NCBI GenBank assembly: GCA_030644725.1 | Contig: CP130629.1 | Coordinates: forward strand, 799,572 to 863,571 | Direction of reading: 5' to 3' | Origin: Candidatus Electrothrix communis | Lineage (GTDB): Bacteria > Desulfobacterota > Desulfobulbia > Desulfobulbales > Desulfobulbaceae | DNA: 64,000 nt | Part shown: piece by piece, positions 3,375 to 41,914 of the stretch | Layout of the letters: every line of letters starts with the position of its first letter | Position numbering within the stretch: the stretch's first letter is position 1 | Translations under genes and position numbers: made by a program | Notes under the pieces: model-generated | The model's database searches: none | Told to the model about the DNA's origin: nothing | What the model saw: the letters and a program-made list of their open reading frames with translations, nothing else

Positions 3375-4484
3375 TCACACCAACTCCCAATCCTTAAACA
3401 CCGGCTGATACCCACTCTGCCGGATCATCGCGGCCACCTCATCCACACTGCGATCATCAGTCACCTCAAACTGGACTGTGGCCTCGGCATGGTCTTTGAG
3501 GGCATACTCCCCGACCCCGGTCTTGGAGCCGGAGGAATAGCGGGTTGCGCCGAGATGGATCAGCCGATCTCGGAACTCAGCAGACTCGCGGGTAGAGATG
3601 GTAATACCTAACCTAGGCATGAAGAGCCGCCAAGCCAGCATGAACTGGACAAAATCAATATCGGACAGGATATTCTTGGGCTCAATGATCCCCTTGGCCT
3701 TGGTCATGCGGGGTAGGGACAAGGAAACCTCTACATCCGGGAATTCCCGCTCAAGATATTGAGCATGAAGTGCCGCCATGTAGGCCTCTTTGCGCGGCTC
3801 GCCTAGGCCGAACAGTGTACCGATATTCAAGGCCCGAAAGCCCGCTCGTGCCCCACGCTCCGGGGTCATGAGCCGATACTCGTAATCCGACTTTCTGCCG
3901 CGTGGATGCACCTCTTTATAAATATCCCGATCATAGACCTCCTGATACACAGTTAGGGAATCCGCCCCGGCCTTGCACAGCACCTGATACTCCTCCTCAT
4001 CCATAGGGAAGATCTCCAGGGCAATGGAGGAGAAGTACTTCTTCATGATCTTGACCGCCTCTTCCAGATAGGGCATGGGCGTCTGGGCCGGGGCCTCGCC
4101 GGTCAGGATCAGGATATGACGGATACCGGTGGCAGCAATGGCTGCGGCTTCCCGTTCAATCTCTTCCAAGGAGAGTTTGGTTCTGGGGAAATCCACGCCC
4201 GCATTAAAGCCGCAATAGGTACAGAGGTTGGAGCAATGATCTGAGATGTACAACGGAGCATAGAGGCTGATGATATTGCCAAAGTACTGGCGAGTAACCT
4301 GCCTGCCTTTTTGCGCCATTTCCTCCAAAAAATCCTGGGCTGTCAGAGAGAGGAGATTGAGCAAATCACGCTGGTCCAACTCATCCCGTTGTAAAGAGTT
4401 GCGTACATCCTCCGGGCTCACCGAACGAAAATATCCCTCAAAATTAAAAGACTCCAGCTCAAGCACCTTATTCATAAAGGACAT
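3375..4484 (-). CDS. thiH: 2-iminoacetate synthase ThiH
   Basis: 369 residues, normal for ThiH. It carries the radical SAM motif CSNLCTYCGF (CxxxCxxC, about residues 84-93) inside the ThiH context YAPLYISDHCSNLCTYCGFN. ThiH cleaves tyrosine with S-adenosylmethionine to give dehydroglycine (2-iminoacetate), the glycine-derived unit that ThiG uses for the thiazole ring, the anaerobic alternative to ThiO. It is the last gene of thiSGH, 1 bp after thiG, and is controlled by the TPP riboswitch upstream of thiS. A short duplicate of its 3' end lies about 100 bp downstream. Confidence 0.96.
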   Translation of the reverse strand: MSFMNKVLELESFNFEGYFRSVSPEDVRNSLQRDELDQRDLLNLLSLTAQDFLEEMAQKGRQVTRQYFGNIISLYAPLYISDHCSNLCTYCGFNAGVDFPRTKLSLEEIEREAAAIAATGIRHILILTGEAPAQTPMPYLEEAVKIMKKYFSSIALEIFPMDEEEYQVLCKAGADSLTVYQEVYDRDIYKEVHPRGRKSDYEYRLMTPERGARAGFRALNIGTLFGLGEPRKEAYMAALHAQYLEREFPDVEVSLSLPRMTKAKGIIEPKNILSDIDFVQFMLAWRLFMPRLGITISTRESAEFRDRLIHLGATRYSSGSKTGVGEYALKDHAEATVQFEVTDDRSVDEVAAMIRQSGYQPVFKDWELV

Positions 4485-4485
4485 A

Positions 4486-5277
4486 TTATTGCCTCAGAAA
4501 GCCAGTCAAAGGAGAGGAGGCATCGGCATACTCTTTTTCCTCGGCCATTTGCGCTAATCGCGCCATCCGCCCAGCCTGCACAGCTAAGGAAAAGGCCTTG
4601 CCAGCCATCACCGGATCATGGCTGGTGGCAATGGCGGTATTGACAAGAACTGCATCTGCGCCCATTTCCATTGCCTCGGCTGCCTGAGAGGGCCTACCGA
4701 TTCCGGCATCTACTACCACAGGCAGCTTACTGATCTCAATGATCCGCTTGAGCATAGCCTTCATCTCCAGGCCCCGGTTGGTGCCGATGGGCGAGCCCAG
4801 GGGCATGATCGCGGCAGCACCTGCATCGTGGAGTTGCTTGGTCACGGTGATGTCCGGCATCATATAGGGAAGGACGATAAAGCCCTCCTTGGCCAGGATT
4901 TCGGTGGCCTTGAGCGTCCCTGCATTATCCGGCAGCAGATACTTCATGTCCGTGATCACCTCAATCTTGATGAAATCGCCGCAACCGGCCTCACGGGCGA
5001 TTCGGGCAATGCGGACCGCCTCTTCGGCTGTCCTGGCACCGGAGGTGTTGGGCAGGATACGCACCGACTTGGGGATATATTGCAGGATATCTTTTTCTTT
5101 GGCATCGGGGTCCACCCGACGCAGGGCCACGGTGATCAGCTCGGAGCCGCTGGCCTCCAGCATGGGGGCAATAATATCGCGGGAGGCGAATTTACCGGTC
5201 CCGGTAAGCAAGCGACTGGAAAAAGCAACATCGCCAAAATACAGGGTATCATTTTCTGTTTCTTTTGTGGACATCAT
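4486..5277 (-). CDS. thiG: Thiazole synthase ThiG
   Basis: 263 residues, the usual ThiG length. Visible family features are the start of the barrel ([19 protein letters not shown]), the substrate lysine region [16 protein letters not shown], and the phosphate-binding C-terminal part ([20 protein letters not shown]). ThiG condenses DXP, dehydroglycine from ThiH and sulfur carried as ThiS thiocarboxylate into the thiazole phosphate moiety of thiamine. It overlaps thiS by 4 bp and is followed 1 bp later by thiH, consistent with one operon. Confidence 0.97.
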
Positions 5278-33313: not shown

Positions 33314-34084
33314 TTACGGCAGGTTATATAAACATTTCGGCAGCATCACCAGAAAATCAAGACACTTGTTATAATCAAGCTCGTAAAAGTTGATGCCCAG
33401 ATGTATTGTCGCATAGTATTCCGGCTGATGCTCTTTATAGTACTGTTCAGACGGTATCTTCCAGAATTGCTGTCCGATCTTTTCCGCTATAAACCATTTT
33501 TCCAGCAGCCGTGCCGCTCTCCCGTTGCCGTCTCTAAAGGGATGAATATGGGCAAAACGTAAATGGAGCAGGGCGGCAAAATAAAAGACTTCTTCTGTCG
33601 TCAGTTGCGTGGCGATGAGTTCAGCAATACCGCTGAAGAAGGTCTCCATCTCCTTTCCGACAAATTCAGGTTCTACGGCCAAATAAGCCATACCTGTTTT
33701 GCCAAACACGCCCACGGGCTCAATTCTGTAGGCTCCTCTCTTGCTCTTGATCAGGAATGTTTCGGAAAACATCTTGTGGCAATGAAGCAGATTCGCCTCT
33801 GTTAAGGCATTTTGTTGAGCAAAGCCGTAGGCTGCAATGAGGTTTTCTATCTCTTCAATTTCTTTACCGGGCTTGGAGTTTGTCTGGCTCAGCTCATAAT
33901 TCATGTACGAATTCAGATCAACGCTGTTGCCCTCTATATTTGAGGAGTAAACAGCGGAAGCCTTGGTCAGGTACTCGAATCTCCCGTTATCTTCTGAGAA
34001 GTCAAAGCGGGTGAGCAGGTCTTCAAGTTGATTGCCTATGGTTTGTGAATAGGCGTTAAGATATTTTCTTTCTGTGACTTTCAT
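33314..34084 (-). CDS. Fic family protein (operon-associated)
   Basis: 256 residues. FAHIHPFRDGNGRAARLLEK is an intact Fic core (catalytic His, GNGR). VYSSNIEGNSVD near residue 50 fits the inhibitory (S/T)xxxE(G/N) helix, so activity is probably held in check by an N-terminal helix. Expected chemistry is transfer of AMP (or another nucleotide) to a protein hydroxyl. It starts 2 bp after the stop of the E2-E1-JAB gene, making it the fourth member of that operon; a Fic protein joined to ubiquitin-like machinery is unusual. Confidence 0.9.
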   Translation of the reverse strand: MKVTERKYLNAYSQTIGNQLEDLLTRFDFSEDNGRFEYLTKASAVYSSNIEGNSVDLNSYMNYELSQTNSKPGKEIEEIENLIAAYGFAQQNALTEANLLHCHKMFSETFLIKSKRGAYRIEPVGVFGKTGMAYLAVEPEFVGKEMETFFSGIAELIATQLTTEEVFYFAALLHLRFAHIHPFRDGNGRAARLLEKWFIAEKIGQQFWKIPSEQYYKEHQPEYYATIHLGINFYELDYNKCLDFLVMLPKCLYNLP

Positions 34085-34086
34085 GC

Positions 34087-36165
34087 TTAAACTTGCACTA
34101 TCCCTTTATCGGTCCAAATGAGACAGACCGTAGGTTCATAGTTTCTCACAAATAAAAGGCGTGAAGCTGTCTTATGATCGATGGATGACGCGGTTCCGCC
34201 CTGCGGGTGACTGTGCCATGTGCCAAGATAAGTAATTTTTCCGTTTGTTTTTCTTTCGATATTTTTTATCTGCTGTTCTAACCCTTCTGTGCCCAAGACA
34301 AAGATTGTCGGCTTTAAAATACTGTCTGGCGGGGGAGGTAATATATCCGTAATGATGATTGACTTGGGGACTAAAAAGACAGAACCGATCAAACAGCCGC
34401 CCGTTTCATTAGCACCGCTCACCATAGCCTGCTCTTTCATTTTTTCAAGAACATGATCCATCACTCGAACATTCCAATCCCTCTTTGTTATTGAGGGGAT
34501 AGGTTTGCTTCCCTTGATTTCAATTCGTTCTGAAACCAGATCAATATCATTCTGAGTTCTCGTCAGGACAATCTCGCCATATTCTGGCAATGAATTTTCA
34601 AGAATATTTTGAACGATAAGACTCATGCTCGAAGCATAAAGCGAAAGGGTGGCATCCTTCATGATTACTGTGTGCGAGCCGCATCCCTGCCCGATTGGAA
34701 CATTCTCTTTCTGTTCAGAAAAGATAATATTTCGCAACCACTTATTTTCTAAACAATGCGAATATAAAGCAGCCCATAATTCTTCTAATCCAACGTCTTT
34801 CTTACCTGCTTCAACAAGGGAAATTCCAAGTTTGCCACCACCATATATCCCATGAGAGCTTATCGGAGGCAGCGACTTGTCCCTCATTAAGAAGGAACGA
34901 ACAGCTAAAGAAGCCGTTGTGTCAATTATGATTCTTGATTGGGGAAAATCCGTCTCGGTTGCGGTTTTGTTAGATACGAAACTTTGTTGATTAGAGATAG
35001 AGGATATTGATTGGGCCAGCAGGTCAGCTTTATTAGAAAAATAAACAAAGCTAAGACCATGCCGGGCATTATTATGCGGCAGAAAGAAATCGTTATCTAC
35101 GCAAAGAAAAGCACCGTTTCCATTTCTGGCGAGATGAAGACCTATTTTAGATCCCAAGCTTCCGCAGCCAAGCAAGGTAATAGGTAGCGAATCATCTGTC
35201 TGTTTTGCTCCTGAGAACCTTTTTAATAAATTGGTAGAGGTCTCATTGATATGTGCAAGCATTCCGACAGGACAATCTCGCAGCACACGCTTTTTCTTTT
35301 TCCTTGGTTTGGATCTTGTTATGACAAAATTTAATACTTCAACATTGCTCTCTGAATTGATAAGGCGACATGGCCTATGAATCGCCAAAGAAACAAAGAT
35401 CTTGTCATTTTTTAAGTATTGGGAATCTACTGCTTCAACAGTTATCTGCAAATCCTTCAATCCTATCTTAGTTGCAAAATCATATAAATCTCCAAGAGTA
35501 AAAATGCTGTTTGGAAGATAATTTTTCTGGATTAATTTATCGGGATGTTGACATACGAGAAGAATAGATTTTTTTCCGTTCATTACTGAAGCTATAGGAT
35601 CAACAAATATAGCTCCATTTCGCTCGACATAATCAATTTCTTTAAGGTGGATGTTGTTTTCTTTTAAAAATTCAAGCAGGATATATATATCATAAGTTAT
35701 ATAACCAGCAGGAGAATCATTCCGCATCGGTTCCCAGCCTTGGGAATAATTGATCAGAGAACCAGATGCCGCTTTTTCCAGCCAATCGACAAGTTGATTT
35801 AATATCCCGTTCATCCATTCAGACTGCTGAAGAAGCTCTGACAAGTCTCCTGCATAAATACATGGCAGAACTTCTTTCTGACTCGGATTGATATGCGGAA
35901 ACGAACGAGGAAAATCTTCGCGTAAGAGGATGGCAGGAGCTTTCAGAGGAAATTCCTTTTGAAACCTGAAGGTAACCGGCTCGACAGAGCGCACACCGGA
36001 TTTTGTAACTCCGGTATCAGTAAAACGGGCCGGAAGGCCGACAACTATCTCCGCAGAGATTGTTGCAGATTGACGGTCAACGGCAAAGGAGATTTCGCCA
36101 ACATTGCTGAAGGCTCTATGCTCCTTGATATACTGATGCGCCTTTTGGAACCAAAAATCATCCAT
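34087..36165 (-). CDS. E2-E1-JAB fusion protein (ubiquitin-like conjugation machinery)
   Basis: 692 residues from the ATG at 36165, chosen because it overlaps the upstream stop by 8 bp (ATGGATGA); an earlier ATG at 36249 would overlap by 92 bp. Three modules: (1) about 1-165, a prokaryotic E2-like domain with FPHINPSQKEVLPCIYAGD, whose Cys is the candidate thioester site; (2) about 310-550, a ThiF/E1 domain with ITLLGCGSLGSKIGLHLARN, the nucleotide Asp in CVDND and a candidate catalytic Cys in GQGCGSHTV; (3) about 560-692, a JAB/MPN peptidase with ETGGCLIG and the JAMM zinc motif GTWHSHPQGGTASSID. In type II CBASS the same functions are split into Cap2 (E2-E1) and Cap3 (JAB). No ubiquitin-like protein is recognisable nearby. 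Confidence 0.88.
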   Translation of the reverse strand: MDDFWFQKAHQYIKEHRAFSNVGEISFAVDRQSATISAEIVVGLPARFTDTGVTKSGVRSVEPVTFRFQKEFPLKAPAILLREDFPRSFPHINPSQKEVLPCIYAGDLSELLQQSEWMNGILNQLVDWLEKAASGSLINYSQGWEPMRNDSPAGYITYDIYILLEFLKENNIHLKEIDYVERNGAIFVDPIASVMNGKKSILLVCQHPDKLIQKNYLPNSIFTLGDLYDFATKIGLKDLQITVEAVDSQYLKNDKIFVSLAIHRPCRLINSESNVEVLNFVITRSKPRKKKKRVLRDCPVGMLAHINETSTNLLKRFSGAKQTDDSLPITLLGCGSLGSKIGLHLARNGNGAFLCVDNDFFLPHNNARHGLSFVYFSNKADLLAQSISSISNQQSFVSNKTATETDFPQSRIIIDTTASLAVRSFLMRDKSLPPISSHGIYGGGKLGISLVEAGKKDVGLEELWAALYSHCLENKWLRNIIFSEQKENVPIGQGCGSHTVIMKDATLSLYASSMSLIVQNILENSLPEYGEIVLTRTQNDIDLVSERIEIKGSKPIPSITKRDWNVRVMDHVLEKMKEQAMVSGANETGGCLIGSVFLVPKSIIITDILPPPPDSILKPTIFVLGTEGLEQQIKNIERKTNGKITYLGTWHSHPQGGTASSIDHKTASRLLFVRNYEPTVCLIWTDKGIVQV

Positions 36166-37318
36166 GAGGATATGATTCCTTTGTTGAAGCCAGAGCTGCG
36201 GCAGAAAGTTTAGATTTTTCTTTAATTCCTTTCTGTTGAGGGCCGTCACCTGTCAGATTGAATTCAAGTGATTCTGCCTTGCCTTCTTTCGGATGCTCAT
36301 CAGTGCAGAAAAAATTTTCGGTTATACTAAGATATTCATCTTTTGCTGCTTGGCTGGGCGGGTCATCATCTTCATTTTTAATCGGCTTGCTCTGCGCAAT
36401 AAGACTTGCCCCTGATTTTTTTTGGCTTAATGCTTTTTTTGCCTTCTCGCAGACCTGTGGATCATCGCAGTCTGATTGACTGTCATAGGATAAACAGTGC
36501 CAAGAACAATGGTGGGGTATAGATAGTAGATCATAATCCAACCGATCTGTATTCTTATATTTATCCCAAAAAGTTTCCCAAACGAAACATTCTGCATCGC
36601 CGCACATCAGAATCAGGTTGGAATAACTTCCCTCCTTGATATTCAGCTGCATCACTATGCTCTGCCTATTTTTCTTCTCAAAATCTTCATCAGGCTCATC
36701 CTGTTGCTGCTCAAGCGGCCCTAAAAGAAAAATTTCTAGTTTTGAGCTAATATCCCGTTCATTCACCTTTGAAAAGGAAGTATCGATTTCTCGAACTATT
36801 TCTTCTAAGCCATCTGTTTTTCCTTCTACATCCTTGCCGATGATAATAGCACGATCTCCTTCATCCTGAATCGTGTCATTCTTTTGAAAAAGCTTAACCC
36901 GACGTTTCATTTCCTTGTTGAATGCTTTTGCATCGTCGGTCAGGGGATAGTTTTCTGATGCCTGTTTCCAAAACCTCGGTGTGCTCCACAGCTCCCTGAT
37001 GATTATTTTTGCTTCTTCATCTCCCTTCGGTTCAGTGTAGTCATCAATCGATCCCAAATGAAAATGCTCTTGAAGGCCACGCAGGTGATCATCATGGTGG
37101 TGTGTCAGAATAAAAGCATCAACATAAGGCCGATTGTTTGAGTCTTTTGGTAATCGATCTCTGAGTTCTTGGCTGACATCGCAGATATCTTCCTCTGATG
37201 CAGAGGTATCCCTGATATTGATATCCTTTAGAATAGTAGTTTTATCGTTGTCGTTCAGCCGAAGGAGTTTCATACCGCCATTGGCAATAGGAAAATAGGT
37301 GATCATTGAAAAGTTCAT
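36158..37318 (-). CDS. Metallo-beta-lactamase-fold hydrolase
   Basis: 386 residues. FILTHHHDDHLRGL near residue 71 is the HxHxDH metal motif; further ligands may be CGDAE (Asp) and IPHHCSWHC (His). The fold resembles the MBL proteins of ComEC or RNase Z type, with a charged, variable insert (about 130-210). The last 35 residues are a flexible, Lys/Ser-rich tail ending SYPHG, with glycine as the final residue. It overlaps both neighbours (4 bp with the membrane-protein gene, 8 bp with the E2-E1-JAB gene). Probably the nuclease, phosphodiesterase or hydrolase arm of the system. Confidence 0.8.
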   Translation of the reverse strand: MNFSMITYFPIANGGMKLLRLNDNDKTTILKDINIRDTSASEEDICDVSQELRDRLPKDSNNRPYVDAFILTHHHDDHLRGLQEHFHLGSIDDYTEPKGDEEAKIIIRELWSTPRFWKQASENYPLTDDAKAFNKEMKRRVKLFQKNDTIQDEGDRAIIIGKDVEGKTDGLEEIVREIDTSFSKVNERDISSKLEIFLLGPLEQQQDEPDEDFEKKNRQSIVMQLNIKEGSYSNLILMCGDAECFVWETFWDKYKNTDRLDYDLLSIPHHCSWHCLSYDSQSDCDDPQVCEKAKKALSQKKSGASLIAQSKPIKNEDDDPPSQAAKDEYLSITENFFCTDEHPKEGKAESLEFNLTGDGPQQKGIKEKSKLSAAALASTKESYPHG

Positions 37319-38034
37319 GTATTTTCTCCAGTTGCGTTCATATATTCAGTGAATAGAGTATCTGCATATTGGTGTGCATATTTTGTAAGCACTCTTTCCC
37401 TTAATAACAAGAGCATAACAAAGACTATTGAACATATAATGAAAGCTGAGGACACCCGCCAGTTTGTTCCTATTCCATACCAATAGGAACAACCAACACT
37501 TCCGGCCAATCCCCAAAATGTTCCGCCAAGAAGATTTCTTATGAAACCATATCGAATATTGTACTGGTATGTCATAACCCCTCTACCTACATACCTTCTG
37601 ATAAAAACTACAGCTTCACGACAACGCTTCTTGGCTTCATCAAATTTTATTTGCTCTTTATTTTCGTTCATCAATTCAAAGTTAAAATCTCTCAATACTT
37701 TTTCACGTATTGCATTCTTCATGCTTGTCGATAGAAATGAATCCCGAAATAAGAGCATAGTTGTCGTCGGGAAATCTATTCCACCTTTTCCGAAAATACT
37801 TTCTTCAATCAAGTGCTTGGCGATTCCGCATTGCAACTGAATTAATGCAAGCGTAATAATCATAGAGATACTTACATTTGCTACTACCATCCACCCGAGA
37901 TCTGCTGCGATAGTTGTCCAGAAAGATTCACCGAGAAATTGAATGCAAAAGTGAACGGGAAACATAGCGGTAATAAAGCAAGGAATGTAACGAGCTTTTA
38001 TTTCATATTCATCCCAAGATGTAACTTTTTCCAT
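37315..38034 (-). CDS. Four-TM membrane protein, first gene of the E2-E1-JAB operon
   Basis: 239 residues in no family I recognise. Two hydrophobic hairpins are visible: about 16-36 (IPCFITAMFPVHFCIQFLG) with 43-66 (ADLGWMVVANVSISMIITLA), and about 168-187 (GTFWGLAGSVGCSYWYGIG) with 192-212 (VSSAFIICSIVFVMLLLL). The roughly 95-residue middle part is charged and presumably cytoplasmic. There is no signal peptide. Being first in the operon and membrane-bound, it is a candidate effector or membrane anchor; this is inference. The coding DNA is AT-rich. Confidence 0.75.
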   Translation of the reverse strand: MEKVTSWDEYEIKARYIPCFITAMFPVHFCIQFLGESFWTTIAADLGWMVVANVSISMIITLALIQLQCGIAKHLIEESIFGKGGIDFPTTTMLLFRDSFLSTSMKNAIREKVLRDFNFELMNENKEQIKFDEAKKRCREAVVFIRRYVGRGVMTYQYNIRYGFIRNLLGGTFWGLAGSVGCSYWYGIGTNWRVSSAFIICSIVFVMLLLLRERVLTKYAHQYADTLFTEYMNATGENT

Positions 38035-38425: not shown

Positions 38426-39640
38426 TTACGTCAGCAGAAACTCCTTAAACTGACCGCGCATACAATGGTTTGAAGCCATTGAAGACGAATAGGCACCTGC
38501 ATTGATCAGGGCCAGGTACTCCTGTCCCTCCATGTCGGGCATCCAGGACTCCTCATACCATACATCAATAGCCTCGTTGATATTACCGACCACCCGCATC
38601 GGCATGAACTGCCCGTTGCCCAGATCCAGAGGGACCGGTTGTAAGGGCAGCTGATAGTAGGCCGGCTCCGGTGCCAGGTTAAAGCCCGCATCAAGTCCGA
38701 GAAAGACAGTGTCTTTCTTTTTCTCGATCATGGTTTTTTCCAGCAGCAGGAGACCTGCATCCTTGAGCAGGTATTCTCCCGGTTCCACCTCCAAATGGAG
38801 GCCGGTACCGCTGAAATTCCTTTTCAATACCTCAGTCCACTGGTGCAGATCAAGGGGTTGGTCAAAGGCATCATGGGGGACACCGAGACCTCCGCCCATG
38901 TTTACCTTTTCCAACTGATCACATCGTTCTATGAACCACATACAACGCTGTATGACCGCTTCAAGCTGCTCAAGCTGGGGCGTGAGATAGCCGCAGCCGG
39001 TGTGGAAATGAATCTTGCTGACAGTCAGCCCGCATTCCGCAGCCGTTGCCAGTGCCTCATCAAACTGCTCCTCATAGATCCCAAACTTGGTGACCTTGTT
39101 GCCCGCATATTGCAGGGCAGTGTTTGCCTCGCGGCTTACCCCGGCAGCCGGATTGATCCGTATGCCGATTTTTGCGCCGGGTTTGTACTTTGCCCAGGTC
39201 CGGATCGCGTGCAGGGAATCGCAATCCATAAATAACCCGTCATAGCGGGCGAGCTGTTCATAATCAGCGCGGGACAGGTTGCCCGCAGTAAATGAAATCT
39301 CAGAGGGCCTGAATCCGCAGCTGACTGCCAACTCGACCTCGCTCGGGGAACAGGCGTCAATGCCGCAGAGACCTGTTTCCTCAAGTCGGGTCAGCAGCGG
39401 GACAAAGCGATTGGCTTTCATGGCATACAAAACCGAAAAGCCGCCTTCCAGCTCTGCCTCATCCAGGGCCTGTTGAAGTCGGTTCAGGTTCTCTCGTACT
39501 CGGGAAAATGAGTAGACAAAGGACCGTGAACCGAACTGGGCAGCCAAATGCCTGACCGCCCGATCCGCGAAAAAAAGTTGTCCGTCCCGGTAGCAGAGAT
39601 CCTCTCTCTGCCACCAGGTAGCGTACTGCTTGCTGTCCAT
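38426..39640 (-). CDS. Type III PLP-dependent decarboxylase (DAP/ornithine decarboxylase family)
   Basis: 404 residues from ATG 39640, which shares one base with the stop of the SET gene (TGATG); upstream codons in the same frame belong to that gene. VLYAMKANRFVPLL contains the Schiff-base lysine. HFHTGCGYL, VNMGGGLGVPHD and EVEPGEYLLKDAG are the conserved barrel motifs, and LINAGAYSSSMASNHCMRG ends the family pattern. It resembles diaminopimelate decarboxylase-like enzymes, but pairing with a SET gene suggests a specialised pathway rather than lysine synthesis. The substrate is not known. Confidence 0.88.
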   Translation of the reverse strand: MDSKQYATWWQREDLCYRDGQLFFADRAVRHLAAQFGSRSFVYSFSRVRENLNRLQQALDEAELEGGFSVLYAMKANRFVPLLTRLEETGLCGIDACSPSEVELAVSCGFRPSEISFTAGNLSRADYEQLARYDGLFMDCDSLHAIRTWAKYKPGAKIGIRINPAAGVSREANTALQYAGNKVTKFGIYEEQFDEALATAAECGLTVSKIHFHTGCGYLTPQLEQLEAVIQRCMWFIERCDQLEKVNMGGGLGVPHDAFDQPLDLHQWTEVLKRNFSGTGLHLEVEPGEYLLKDAGLLLLEKTMIEKKKDTVFLGLDAGFNLAPEPAYYQLPLQPVPLDLGNGQFMPMRVVGNINEAIDVWYEESWMPDMEGQEYLALINAGAYSSSMASNHCMRGQFKEFLLT

Positions 39641-40182
39641 CAGCTCTCGCCTGCGAGATGAACTGCCGCCATAAGCGCGGCAGGGTTTTCTTGGGAGACG
39701 GCGTGGGCAACGCTGTCTCCCTCTTTGCGGCCTGTGATCCATAAACGGCAGCTTGAGCTGCCGCAGGAGCAGGGAAACTGTTTAAAGAGAACATCCTCTG
39801 TTTCAGCGTAATCCATATAGAGAAAGCTGCCTGGCTCGATATCGCAAAGGGCGGTTACTGTCCGACTCTCCATATCAAGTGAAATATTCGGTGAACAGGA
39901 ATGAAGAAAGTATCCTGAAAAATAAGGGTCATACAGATGGCGATCCGGTGCGATCTGAAGAGTATGCTGGAGTATCTCCGATACTTCTTCTCCTGCTACC
40001 ATCGCCATCAAATCACCCTGAGCAAAATATCTCTTGGTGATTATACCTGAACCTGAAAGCGCATCTTTATAGATGCGTTCAAAGTCGACAGCTTGCGGAT
40101 ACAGGGGATTGATCCCAAATTCTTTTGGATAAATCATGGCATACAGTCTCCTCAAAAAGAGTTTTGCAAAGCCTGCTCGCAA
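39640..40182 (-). CDS. SET-domain protein (putative lysine methyltransferase)
   Basis: 180 residues. SGYFLHSCSPNISLD corresponds to the SET motif NHSCxPN (the first Asn is replaced by Leu), followed by SFLYMDYAETED (the DY motif) and a post-SET cysteine cluster PCSCGSSSCRLWITG. Such a zinc post-SET is more typical of eukaryotic-type enzymes. The true start may be ATG 40137 (MIYPKEFGINPL). It is translationally coupled to the PLP decarboxylase, so a joint role, such as methylating a protein or a decarboxylation product, is possible. Confidence 0.85.
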   Translation of the reverse strand: MRAGFAKLFLRRLYAMIYPKEFGINPLYPQAVDFERIYKDALSGSGIITKRYFAQGDLMAMVAGEEVSEILQHTLQIAPDRHLYDPYFSGYFLHSCSPNISLDMESRTVTALCDIEPGSFLYMDYAETEDVLFKQFPCSCGSSSCRLWITGRKEGDSVAHAVSQENPAALMAAVHLAGES

Positions 40183-40755: not shown

Positions 40756-40865
40756 GCAGGAGTACCAAATCTTGTGCCGGAAAGTTGATAAAGCCACAGC
40801 CGTCGTGAGACGGTGTCGGAAAGCCACGGGTCTCTGATGGGAGAGATAGCCGGGTTACCTGCTTT
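40756..40865 (+). ncRNA. Cyclic-dinucleotide riboswitch (GEMM-I-like), copy 1
   Basis: The core reads GATAAAGCC, a stem CCGTC-GTGA-GACGG closed by a GNRA loop, GGAAAGCCACGGGTCT, and AGATAGCCGGGTTACC, matching GEMM-I in order (…AAAcc-stem/GNRA-…GAAAGCCacGGG…GCCGGGTTRCC). An outer helix can form between GCAGG at 40756 and CCTGC near 40858. The downstream RBS CAGGAGG and ATG lie 20-30 bp on, so control may be translational. c-di-GMP is the usual ligand; the base before TAAAG is A, which might indicate the 3',3'-cGAMP-sensing Ib subclass. Confidence 0.85.
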
Positions 40866-40892: not shown

Positions 40893-41435
40893 ATGAAAGC
40901 AAGACAGTTTTTACTTTGCGGACACATGACAGGATTGGCGGTATTTTTATTTATCGTTATTCCTCTTGCCGCGCAAGCCGGGGTGCAAACAGCAGTTGTT
41001 GTGGACGGTCAATATGATGAGTGGGATATGGACAAGGATGGTTCTACCCCCATGGGTTCTGATCGGTCATACACTGGGGAAGCATTGCCGAGCGTTTACC
41101 TGCGTTATGACAGCATAACCAACACGATTTTTGTTCTTGTCTTGCAGAAAGACAGCATGCGTAATGGGCAGAGCAAACCGGTGGTGAATATTTATTCACT
41201 TGGCCAGAATCTTCCTGTTGACCTTAGTGGTGCTGGAAAGATTTCTAATTTTTCCTGGGTTATGGATGGTGGTAACCGCGTGGGCTGGGAAGGCTCATTC
41301 CAACATAGTCCTGGAACCTATGATTGTGAGACAGCGTTGGATGCGGTTAAGAGAACCAAAAAAGTCTCGGGAAGAAAAACAGCATCAGAGGTGAAGGTTC
41401 TTGATACAGGGGGACTTCTTTTTAAGTGCGACTGA
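40893..41435 (+). CDS. Secreted protein under GEMM-I riboswitch control
   Basis: 180 residues; strong ribosome site AGGAGGTGG before ATG 40893. An N-terminal signal peptide ends near PLAAQAGVQTAVV. The mature part has DGQYDEWDMDKDGSTPMGSD, an Asp-rich stretch that may bind calcium, and beta-rich segments similar to the carbohydrate-binding-like 'DGxxxEW' domains seen in surface proteins. Function unknown; the riboswitch suggests a role in surface lifestyle, attachment or extracellular matrix. A strong terminator follows. Confidence 0.75.
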   Translation: MKARQFLLCGHMTGLAVFLFIVIPLAAQAGVQTAVVVDGQYDEWDMDKDGSTPMGSDRSYTGEALPSVYLRYDSITNTIFVLVLQKDSMRNGQSKPVVNIYSLGQNLPVDLSGAGKISNFSWVMDGGNRVGWEGSFQHSPGTYDCETALDAVKRTKKVSGRKTASEVKVLDTGGLLFKCD

Positions 41436-41804: not shown

Positions 41805-41914
41805 GAACAGGACAATGCGCTTATGTTCTGGAAAGTTGATAAAGCCACAGCCGTCGTGAGGCGGTGTCGGAAAGCTACGGGTCTCCGCAGAGGAGACAGC
41901 CGGGTTGCCTGCTT
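41805..41914 (+). ncRNA. GEMM-I-like riboswitch, copy 2
   Basis: Same architecture as copy 1: GATAAAGCC, CCGTCGTGAGGCGG stem-loop, AAAGCTACGGGTCT, AGACAGCCGGGTTGCC. The normally invariant AAAGCC is AAAGCT here. No gene begins directly downstream: the purine-rich GGGGGG at 41930 is followed only by a frame of about ten codons. It could act on the gene at 42221, some 300 bp away, or be a decaying copy. Confidence 0.78.

Follow-up and report, generated by a model that had tools for sequence, protein, structure and literature searches.

What is achieved by a SET-domain protein whose gene ends on the very base with which a PLP-dependent decarboxylase gene begins? The question is raised by two minus-strand genes of the window, the whole stretch of 64,000 nucleotides that was analysed here. 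The genome, a single contig of 4.85 Mb, belongs to a cable bacterium of the family Desulfobulbaceae whose genus is that of Candidatus Electrothrix. The pair is best read as a stand-alone burB-burI module in a cable bacterium, in which methionine would be methylated to S-methylmethionine (SMM) and SMM decarboxylated. The basis of this reading is homology, kept active-site residues, gene coupling and a recurrent association with genes of methionine, SMM and dimethylsulfoniopropionate (DMSP) metabolism. The features concerned are the following.

39640..40137, minus strand: burB-like gene of 165 aa (ATG 40137-40135, TGA 39642-39640), candidate SET-domain methionine S-methyltransferase
38426..39640, minus strand: burI-like gene of 404 aa, candidate fold-III PLP S-methylmethionine decarboxylase
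39638..39642, minus strand: TGATG overlap, in which the SET stop TGA and the decarboxylase ATG (39640-39638) have base 39640 in common
39892..39903, minus strand: LHSC motif, residues 78-81 of the SET protein, counted from the 40137 start
38574..38576, minus strand: codon of decarboxylase Asn355, where the CE motif of LysA has Cys, counted from the 39640 start

Both open reading frames are complete and open, and the coupling by a TGATG that shares one base, proposed in a sequence-only reading of this DNA, is seen at 39640 on the minus strand. That reading let the SET gene reach 40182, the upper limit of a mechanical open reading frame opened by TTG. The start is most likely the ATG at 40137, because the homologues in the alignment begin at this position, with M-I/L-Y-P. 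Protein identity to two genomes of the same genus (G058 and G060) is 92-95%. Purifying selection acts on the SET and decarboxylase genes alike, with dN/dS values of 0.08-0.16 in eight Nei-Gojobori comparisons with four sequences of the Electrothrix genus. No RNA element was reported for the pair on the minus strand between 37500 and 42500.

The best PDB match of the SET protein is BurB of Burkholderia thailandensis (9l4t_A; phmmer, E 2.1e-35), with 44% identity over 153 aligned residues, and histone methyltransferases trail it by 31 orders of magnitude, at 1e-4 or worse. The Pfam SET model gives the window protein 20.8 bits, slightly under its curated cut-off of 22.4, and a search of the window genome with this model did not report the SET gene of the pair at E <= 0.001. 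The identity of the protein is decided by the match to BurB. The two proteins share the SET fold as judged by sequence, the LHSC motif, four cysteines and all five active-site residues His72, Thr73, Ser88, His93 and Tyr124 of BurB. In an alignment of 87 homologue rows, which takes in the window sequence and near-copies, His72, His93 and Tyr124 are invariant and position 73 is always Thr or Ser. HSC and the post-SET cysteines, pointed out in the sequence-only reading and present in the window protein, are retained in 86-87 of the 87 rows. The Y124A substitution is reported to abolish BurB activity almost entirely; with S88A and Y124F more than 60% is kept (PMC12542666).

BurB is described as converting free methionine to SMM; the recombinant protein makes SMM, and structures have been solved with Met and with SMM plus SAM (PDB 9l4t, 9l4v; PMC12542666). 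The reported KM values are high, 16.6 mM for Met and 1.8 mM for SAM (PMC12542666). The window protein differs from BurB in that Arg42, Ala44, Arg70, Met132, Arg133 and His138, which contact Met or SAM, are replaced, Arg133 by Lys; among the contacts Arg42, Ala44, Arg70, Val130, Met132, Arg133 and His138, part of which are main-chain contacts, Val130 is the sole identity. An NRPS-PKS was not noticed among the genes around the window pair. Since these six contacts differ and the methionine in BurB is held through main-chain atoms (PMC12542666), the substrate is not settled by sequence alone. Its match and its conserved residues identify the SET protein as a homologue of BurB and a candidate methionine S-methyltransferase. 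The reaction proposed for it is the one catalysed by MmtN and plant MMT, enzymes described as having no significant sequence similarity to BurB (PMC12542666). On the methyltransferase of S. mobaraensis the papers disagree, with one presenting it as BurB-like (PMC12542666) and another as MmtN (PMC9135737). An AlphaFold2 model of the SET protein built from a nine-row alignment was poor (mean pLDDT 57) and was set aside.

The partner was earlier called a type III PLP decarboxylase. Its fold-III assignment stands (Pfam PF02784 and PF00278); it is not a generic member, as it carries BurI-type residues at three LysA active-site positions. The window protein is 46% identical (391 bits, E 1.4e-116) to the decarboxylase encoded on the same contig as burB in B. 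ubonensis, the BurI counterpart of that species, and both have the signature EPGD/E, EPxxY and NINE. In B. ubonensis 18 kb separate this gene from the burB-like one, with which it shares contig and strand, whereas the window gene is coupled to burB directly by TGATG. Other decarboxylases in the four Burkholderiales/Pseudomonas genomes searched are 27-29% identical to the window protein, and LysA-like proteins of the compared genomes 24-29%.

LysA structures are the closest solved relatives of the decarboxylase in the PDB search, and the two share the fold family, the PLP lysine and the EPG and CE-loop positions. The window protein differs from LysA in having Glu289, Glu325 and Asn355, where all eight LysA-like rows of the alignment have Arg, Arg and Cys. 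These three positions separate without exception the eight rows from 67 BurI-like rows (66 from loci, near-copies included, and B. ubonensis; L040 and L065 were omitted for length). In all 67 the Arg of EPGR is absent, with Asp (50), Glu (12) or Thr (5) after EPG, the Arg of RPxxY is Glu, and the CE motif has Asn instead of Cys, with the following Glu kept. In Thermotoga LysA the two arginines are reported to bind the distal carboxylate and the CE Glu the distal amine (PMC8277567), and the CE-motif Cys is termed catalytic in the wider decarboxylase family (PMC7857480). Because the acidic residues Glu289, Glu325 and Glu356 occupy the positions of the two arginines and the glutamate with which LysA holds the distal end of its substrate, we infer a pocket suited to a cationic side chain, such as the sulfonium of SMM. 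The outcome of the reaction is not certain, since the Cys-to-Asn change takes away the residue called catalytic. Judged by identity and by these residues, the decarboxylase is a BurI homologue and not LysA. In a tree built by a quick method, with SH-aLRT values as its only support, BurI has a long branch that was flagged, and 59 rows are missing from the group count. The Electrothrix decarboxylases adjoin two rows from proteobacteria in this tree (support 93, not starred), which hints at gene transfer. A further pair, which came from a separate search, is found on a large plasmid of Sphingomonas paeninsulae (L146:2899-4637). It has a 4-base overlap and the same three-residue signature, and is annotated as 'SET domain-containing protein-lysine N-methyltransferase' and diaminopimelate decarboxylase.

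Such annotations correspond to other readings of both proteins. A role of the SET protein in methylating protein lysines, possibly those of the decarboxylase, agrees with the SET fold, the post-SET cysteines and the label of the Sphingomonas relative. Protein-lysine SET methyltransferases have an NHSC motif with Asn. In the window protein the motif is LHSC, Leu stands before HSC in 82 of the 87 rows and in BurB, and the best match is BurB itself, a methionine S-methyltransferase, which makes a lysine methyltransferase very improbable. The earlier observation of Leu in place of Asn was correct; its interpretation as a sign of altered catalysis is not upheld, as the residue is a hallmark of the subfamily and is found in the active BurB. 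A second diaminopimelate decarboxylase would fit the lysA model being the best in NCBIfam, LysA being the best PDB match, and the annotation of one relative. The lysA score, however, is 207.1 bits and thus below the curated cut-off of 297.9, neither arginine for the distal carboxylate is retained, nor is the Cys, and a separate LysA-like gene, 26% identical to the decarboxylase, exists in the window genome, so that this assignment is extremely unlikely. We return to the reading of the pair as BurB and BurI homologues.

Conserved pairs, for which the sequence-only reading had suggested a search, were found widely. Within the family, the SET gene is present in 17 of 73 genomes (E <= 1e-8) and confined to two of 14 genera, where it occurs in 6 of 8 and 11 of 23 genomes; the 56 genomes without it include one 97%-complete genome of the window's genus. 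At 16 of the 17 SET loci the decarboxylase is adjacent on the same strand, and at the 17th the contig ends inside the SET match. A phylum sample of 395 genomes gave five matches, namely three relatives with the decarboxylase and two distant SET proteins (27-32%) without it. In a scan of species genomes 103 SET relatives were found, and the best 80 of the 103 were analysed as loci. A decarboxylase match adjoins the SET gene on the same strand at 66 of these 80 loci; it is BurI-like at 65 of them, with SET first at 61 and the decarboxylase first at four, and at one it is of another type and fused. Coupled burB-burI homologues are hosted by cable bacteria, sulfate reducers and gammaproteobacterial MAGs. 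At 33 of the 61 SET-first loci (best 80 of 103) a 1- or 4-base stop/start overlap is permitted, and at 57 a possible start lies within -40..+30 of the SET stop, any ATG, GTG or TTG being taken as a start and the count having no shuffled control. The coupling of SET and decarboxylase genes exceeds chance.

The fused case belongs to an alphaproteobacterial MAG (L094:8286-10004), in which a LysA-type decarboxylase with its Cys kept and a BurB-like SET form one 573-aa frame; the fusion would tie the two activities together, the decarboxylase being of another type. No adjacent decarboxylase match was found in the DNA covered at the other 14 of the 80 loci (best 80 of 103). Among them are L032, at a contig end, and L100, from B. 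ubonensis, with BurI farther off; the other 12 are records of Pseudomonas, Pandoraea, Paraburkholderia and alphaproteobacterial MAGs, one of which (L102) has another LysA-type decarboxylase upstream of SET. In Pandoraea horticolens (L099:10001-11655) a BurB-like SET gene without BurI is followed by a PLP enzyme of the Cys/Met-metabolism type, with methionine gamma-lyase among its best models; as an idea only, this enzyme could split SMM to dimethyl sulfide. The pair-only decarboxylase of Desulfobulbus rhabdoformis (L040, about 3890-5100) shifts frame near its end in this assembly, owing either to a sequencing error or to decay of the gene.

A clustering of the neighbours at 84 loci did not find a third gene conserved beside pair-only loci; neighbours are lineage-specific or of BurD, BurE, metK and homocysteine-methyltransferase types, and a 28-locus cluster is apparently a mixture of sensor proteins. 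Among the 65 BurI-like loci (best 80 of 103), nine have a BurD-like class III aminotransferase, their hosts being Thiorhodococcus, Desulfobulbus rhabdoformis, Desulforhopalus vacuolatus, Desulfosarcina cetonica, Desulfatibacillum alkenivorans, Desulfobacula and two MAGs. A BurE-like aldehyde dehydrogenase is added at six of these nine loci, and metK is present at six of the 65. Family models on example neighbours identify an aminotransferase, an aminobutyraldehyde dehydrogenase and a methionine adenosyltransferase. The remaining 56 loci, the window included as pair-only, have no BurD-like gene in the DNA covered. Complete four-gene burB/burI/burD/burE clusters are found, for instance, in Desulfatibacillum alkenivorans (L082) and in genome G037. 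The latter carries a pair-only locus as well as its burI-burB-burD-burE cluster, a hint that the two forms may differ in role; D. rhabdoformis also has both types, and its frame-shifted pair-only decarboxylase weakens it as a second example. Close homologues of BurD and BurE are missing from the window genome, where the best BurD matches are 29-30% identical and the single dehydrogenase match 35%, against 59% and 61% for G037 in the same searches.

A homocysteine S-methyltransferase gene lies directly upstream on the same strand at three pair-only loci (L046, L053 and L054; best 80 of 103), calls that rest on Pfam for L053 only and are all under the curated NCBIfam cut-offs. Other members of this six-locus cluster, L045 and L078, have MetH-like genes farther off. 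The homocysteine S-methyltransferase group includes users of SMM. Its presence upstream would be independent support for SMM as the intermediate. As regards recycling of SMM, the window genome has one 33% match to homocysteine S-methyltransferase, inside a 639-aa frame that is perhaps a bifunctional enzyme.

For the window pair we propose that the BurB-like SET enzyme would convert SAM and L-methionine to SMM and SAH, and that the BurI-like PLP enzyme would convert SMM to 3-dimethylsulfoniopropylamine (DMSP-amine) and CO2. The two steps together, from methionine through SMM to DMSP-amine, are held with good confidence. In a third step, general aminotransferase and aldehyde dehydrogenase activities would turn DMSP-amine into DMSP. 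The published route runs from Met through SMM, DMSP-amine and DMSP-aldehyde to DMSP (PMC12542666). In B. thailandensis, the product is reported to require both burB and burI; mutants of burD and of burE continued to form it in reduced amount, for which the authors credit housekeeping enzymes (PMC7496086). The third step is assigned to general enzymes because the same is suggested for these mutants. The substrates, the pocket and the whole of the third step are inferred. Compared with the pathway of BurB, BurI, BurD and BurE, the window has the first two genes, coupled, and differs in being a stand-alone two-gene form with no close BurD or BurE in the genome. The two-step chemistry is probably known; what sets the module apart is its host range and its stand-alone form. 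The earlier interpretation stands in part: the two genes form a conserved functional pair, and a small amine is the likely product. As free methionine is probably methylated first and decarboxylation comes second, neither an amine product nor a polyamine nor the decarboxylase is a likely target of the SET enzyme.

As the window genome is without a close BurD or BurE homologue, the chances that the end product there is DMSP are about even. The pair may carry out the same two steps and stop at DMSP-amine, a cationic solute or polyamine-like compound, with the BurD/BurE clusters forming a separate, DMSP-making type. The 56 BurI-like loci and the window genome, which lack these genes as described above, and G037, where the pair-only locus beside a complete cluster hints at different roles, speak for such an end point. 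Against it, the B. thailandensis mutants make dedicated enzymes appear unneeded (PMC7496086), the second case, D. rhabdoformis, has a frame-shifted pair-only decarboxylase, and a role for free DMSP-amine was not found in the literature searched; we regard this end point as rather unlikely. A further variant has the decarboxylase, with Asn for Cys, perform a decarboxylation-dependent transamination to DMSP-aldehyde and PMP, for which BurD would be unneeded. The Asn in all 67 BurI-like rows and the lack of BurD at most of the loci (best 80 of 103) agree with this. Jackson et al. are said to have found in 2000 that ornithine decarboxylase without the corresponding residue (Cys360) shifts its reaction to aldehyde and PMP. 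The same Asn, however, occurs in B. ubonensis and in those clusters where a BurD-like aminotransferase is retained, and the pathway is described as running through DMSP-amine (PMC12542666), so that the variant is improbable. It is a tentative proposal that a sulfonium pathway of two genes operates in cable bacteria and in many other lineages of Desulfobulbales and Gammaproteobacteria, ending at DMSP-amine, or at DMSP-aldehyde by way of the Cys-to-Asn enzyme. The two-step reading itself, from methionine to DMSP-amine, is the one carried forward here.

The notion that DMSP-amine is an aminopropyl donor, a small analogue of decarboxylated SAM, is weakened for Electrothrix because the window genome has AdoMet decarboxylase and spermidine synthase family matches; the pair-bearing genome G029 has a weak synthase-family match and no AdoMet decarboxylase match, and G037 has neither, so that in these two the notion may still hold. 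Some other SET proteins (G000:C1:1784564, which is L001, and L020 and L023) have an AdoMet decarboxylase (SpeD) gene in their vicinity; the distance is about 4 kb in the window genome and less than 1 kb in the E. aarhusensis genome G058, and the neighbour in G142 looks SpeD-like. Electrothrix is described as preferentially brackish or marine (PMC8252435). A strict link with salinity was dropped, as some Desulfobulbus loci come, by their isolate names, apparently from lakes or termite guts.

In the surroundings of the pair, two matches to the c-di-GMP-I riboswitch at 40784-40863 and 41835-41913, both on the plus strand, score just under the gathering scores (57.4 of 59 and 65.1 of 65.9 bits) and precede ORFs of the plus strand, at 40893 and 42221. 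Beside the pair, the minus-strand region 33314-38034 looks like a ubiquitin-like defence island, with a Fic-domain gene, a 720-aa Prok-E2 plus JAB protein that also has E1-like PADLOC matches, a protein that matches MBL-type PADLOC models and one protein without a match.

BurB has been said to occur only in some Burkholderia (PMC9135737), and a review assigns burB a narrow range of taxa and treats it as a small contributor to the DMSP pools of the environment (PMC13360808). No article that brings burB and DMSP together with Desulfobulbales or Desulfobacterota was found among the matches listed in a search of open-licence PMC articles; DMSP and cable bacteria occur together in two, each of which mentions cable bacteria once. 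The burB-burI route proposed here for cable bacteria would concern a taxonomic group not tied to it in that literature. DMSP is a major marine sulfur compound. Pairs labelled as protein-lysine N-methyltransferase and diaminopimelate decarboxylase would have their annotation corrected, and the three-residue signature offers a simple means of separating BurI-like proteins from LysA. If the pathway is active, sediments hold producers of SMM- or DMSP-type compounds that would be missed by surveys of dsyB and mmtN, and if the pathway ends at DMSP-amine or DMSP-aldehyde, that metabolite would have a role of its own in sediments. If true, methionine sulfur would pass into sulfonium compounds through this module in lineages of sulfide oxidisers and sulfate reducers, a way in that has gone unrecognised.
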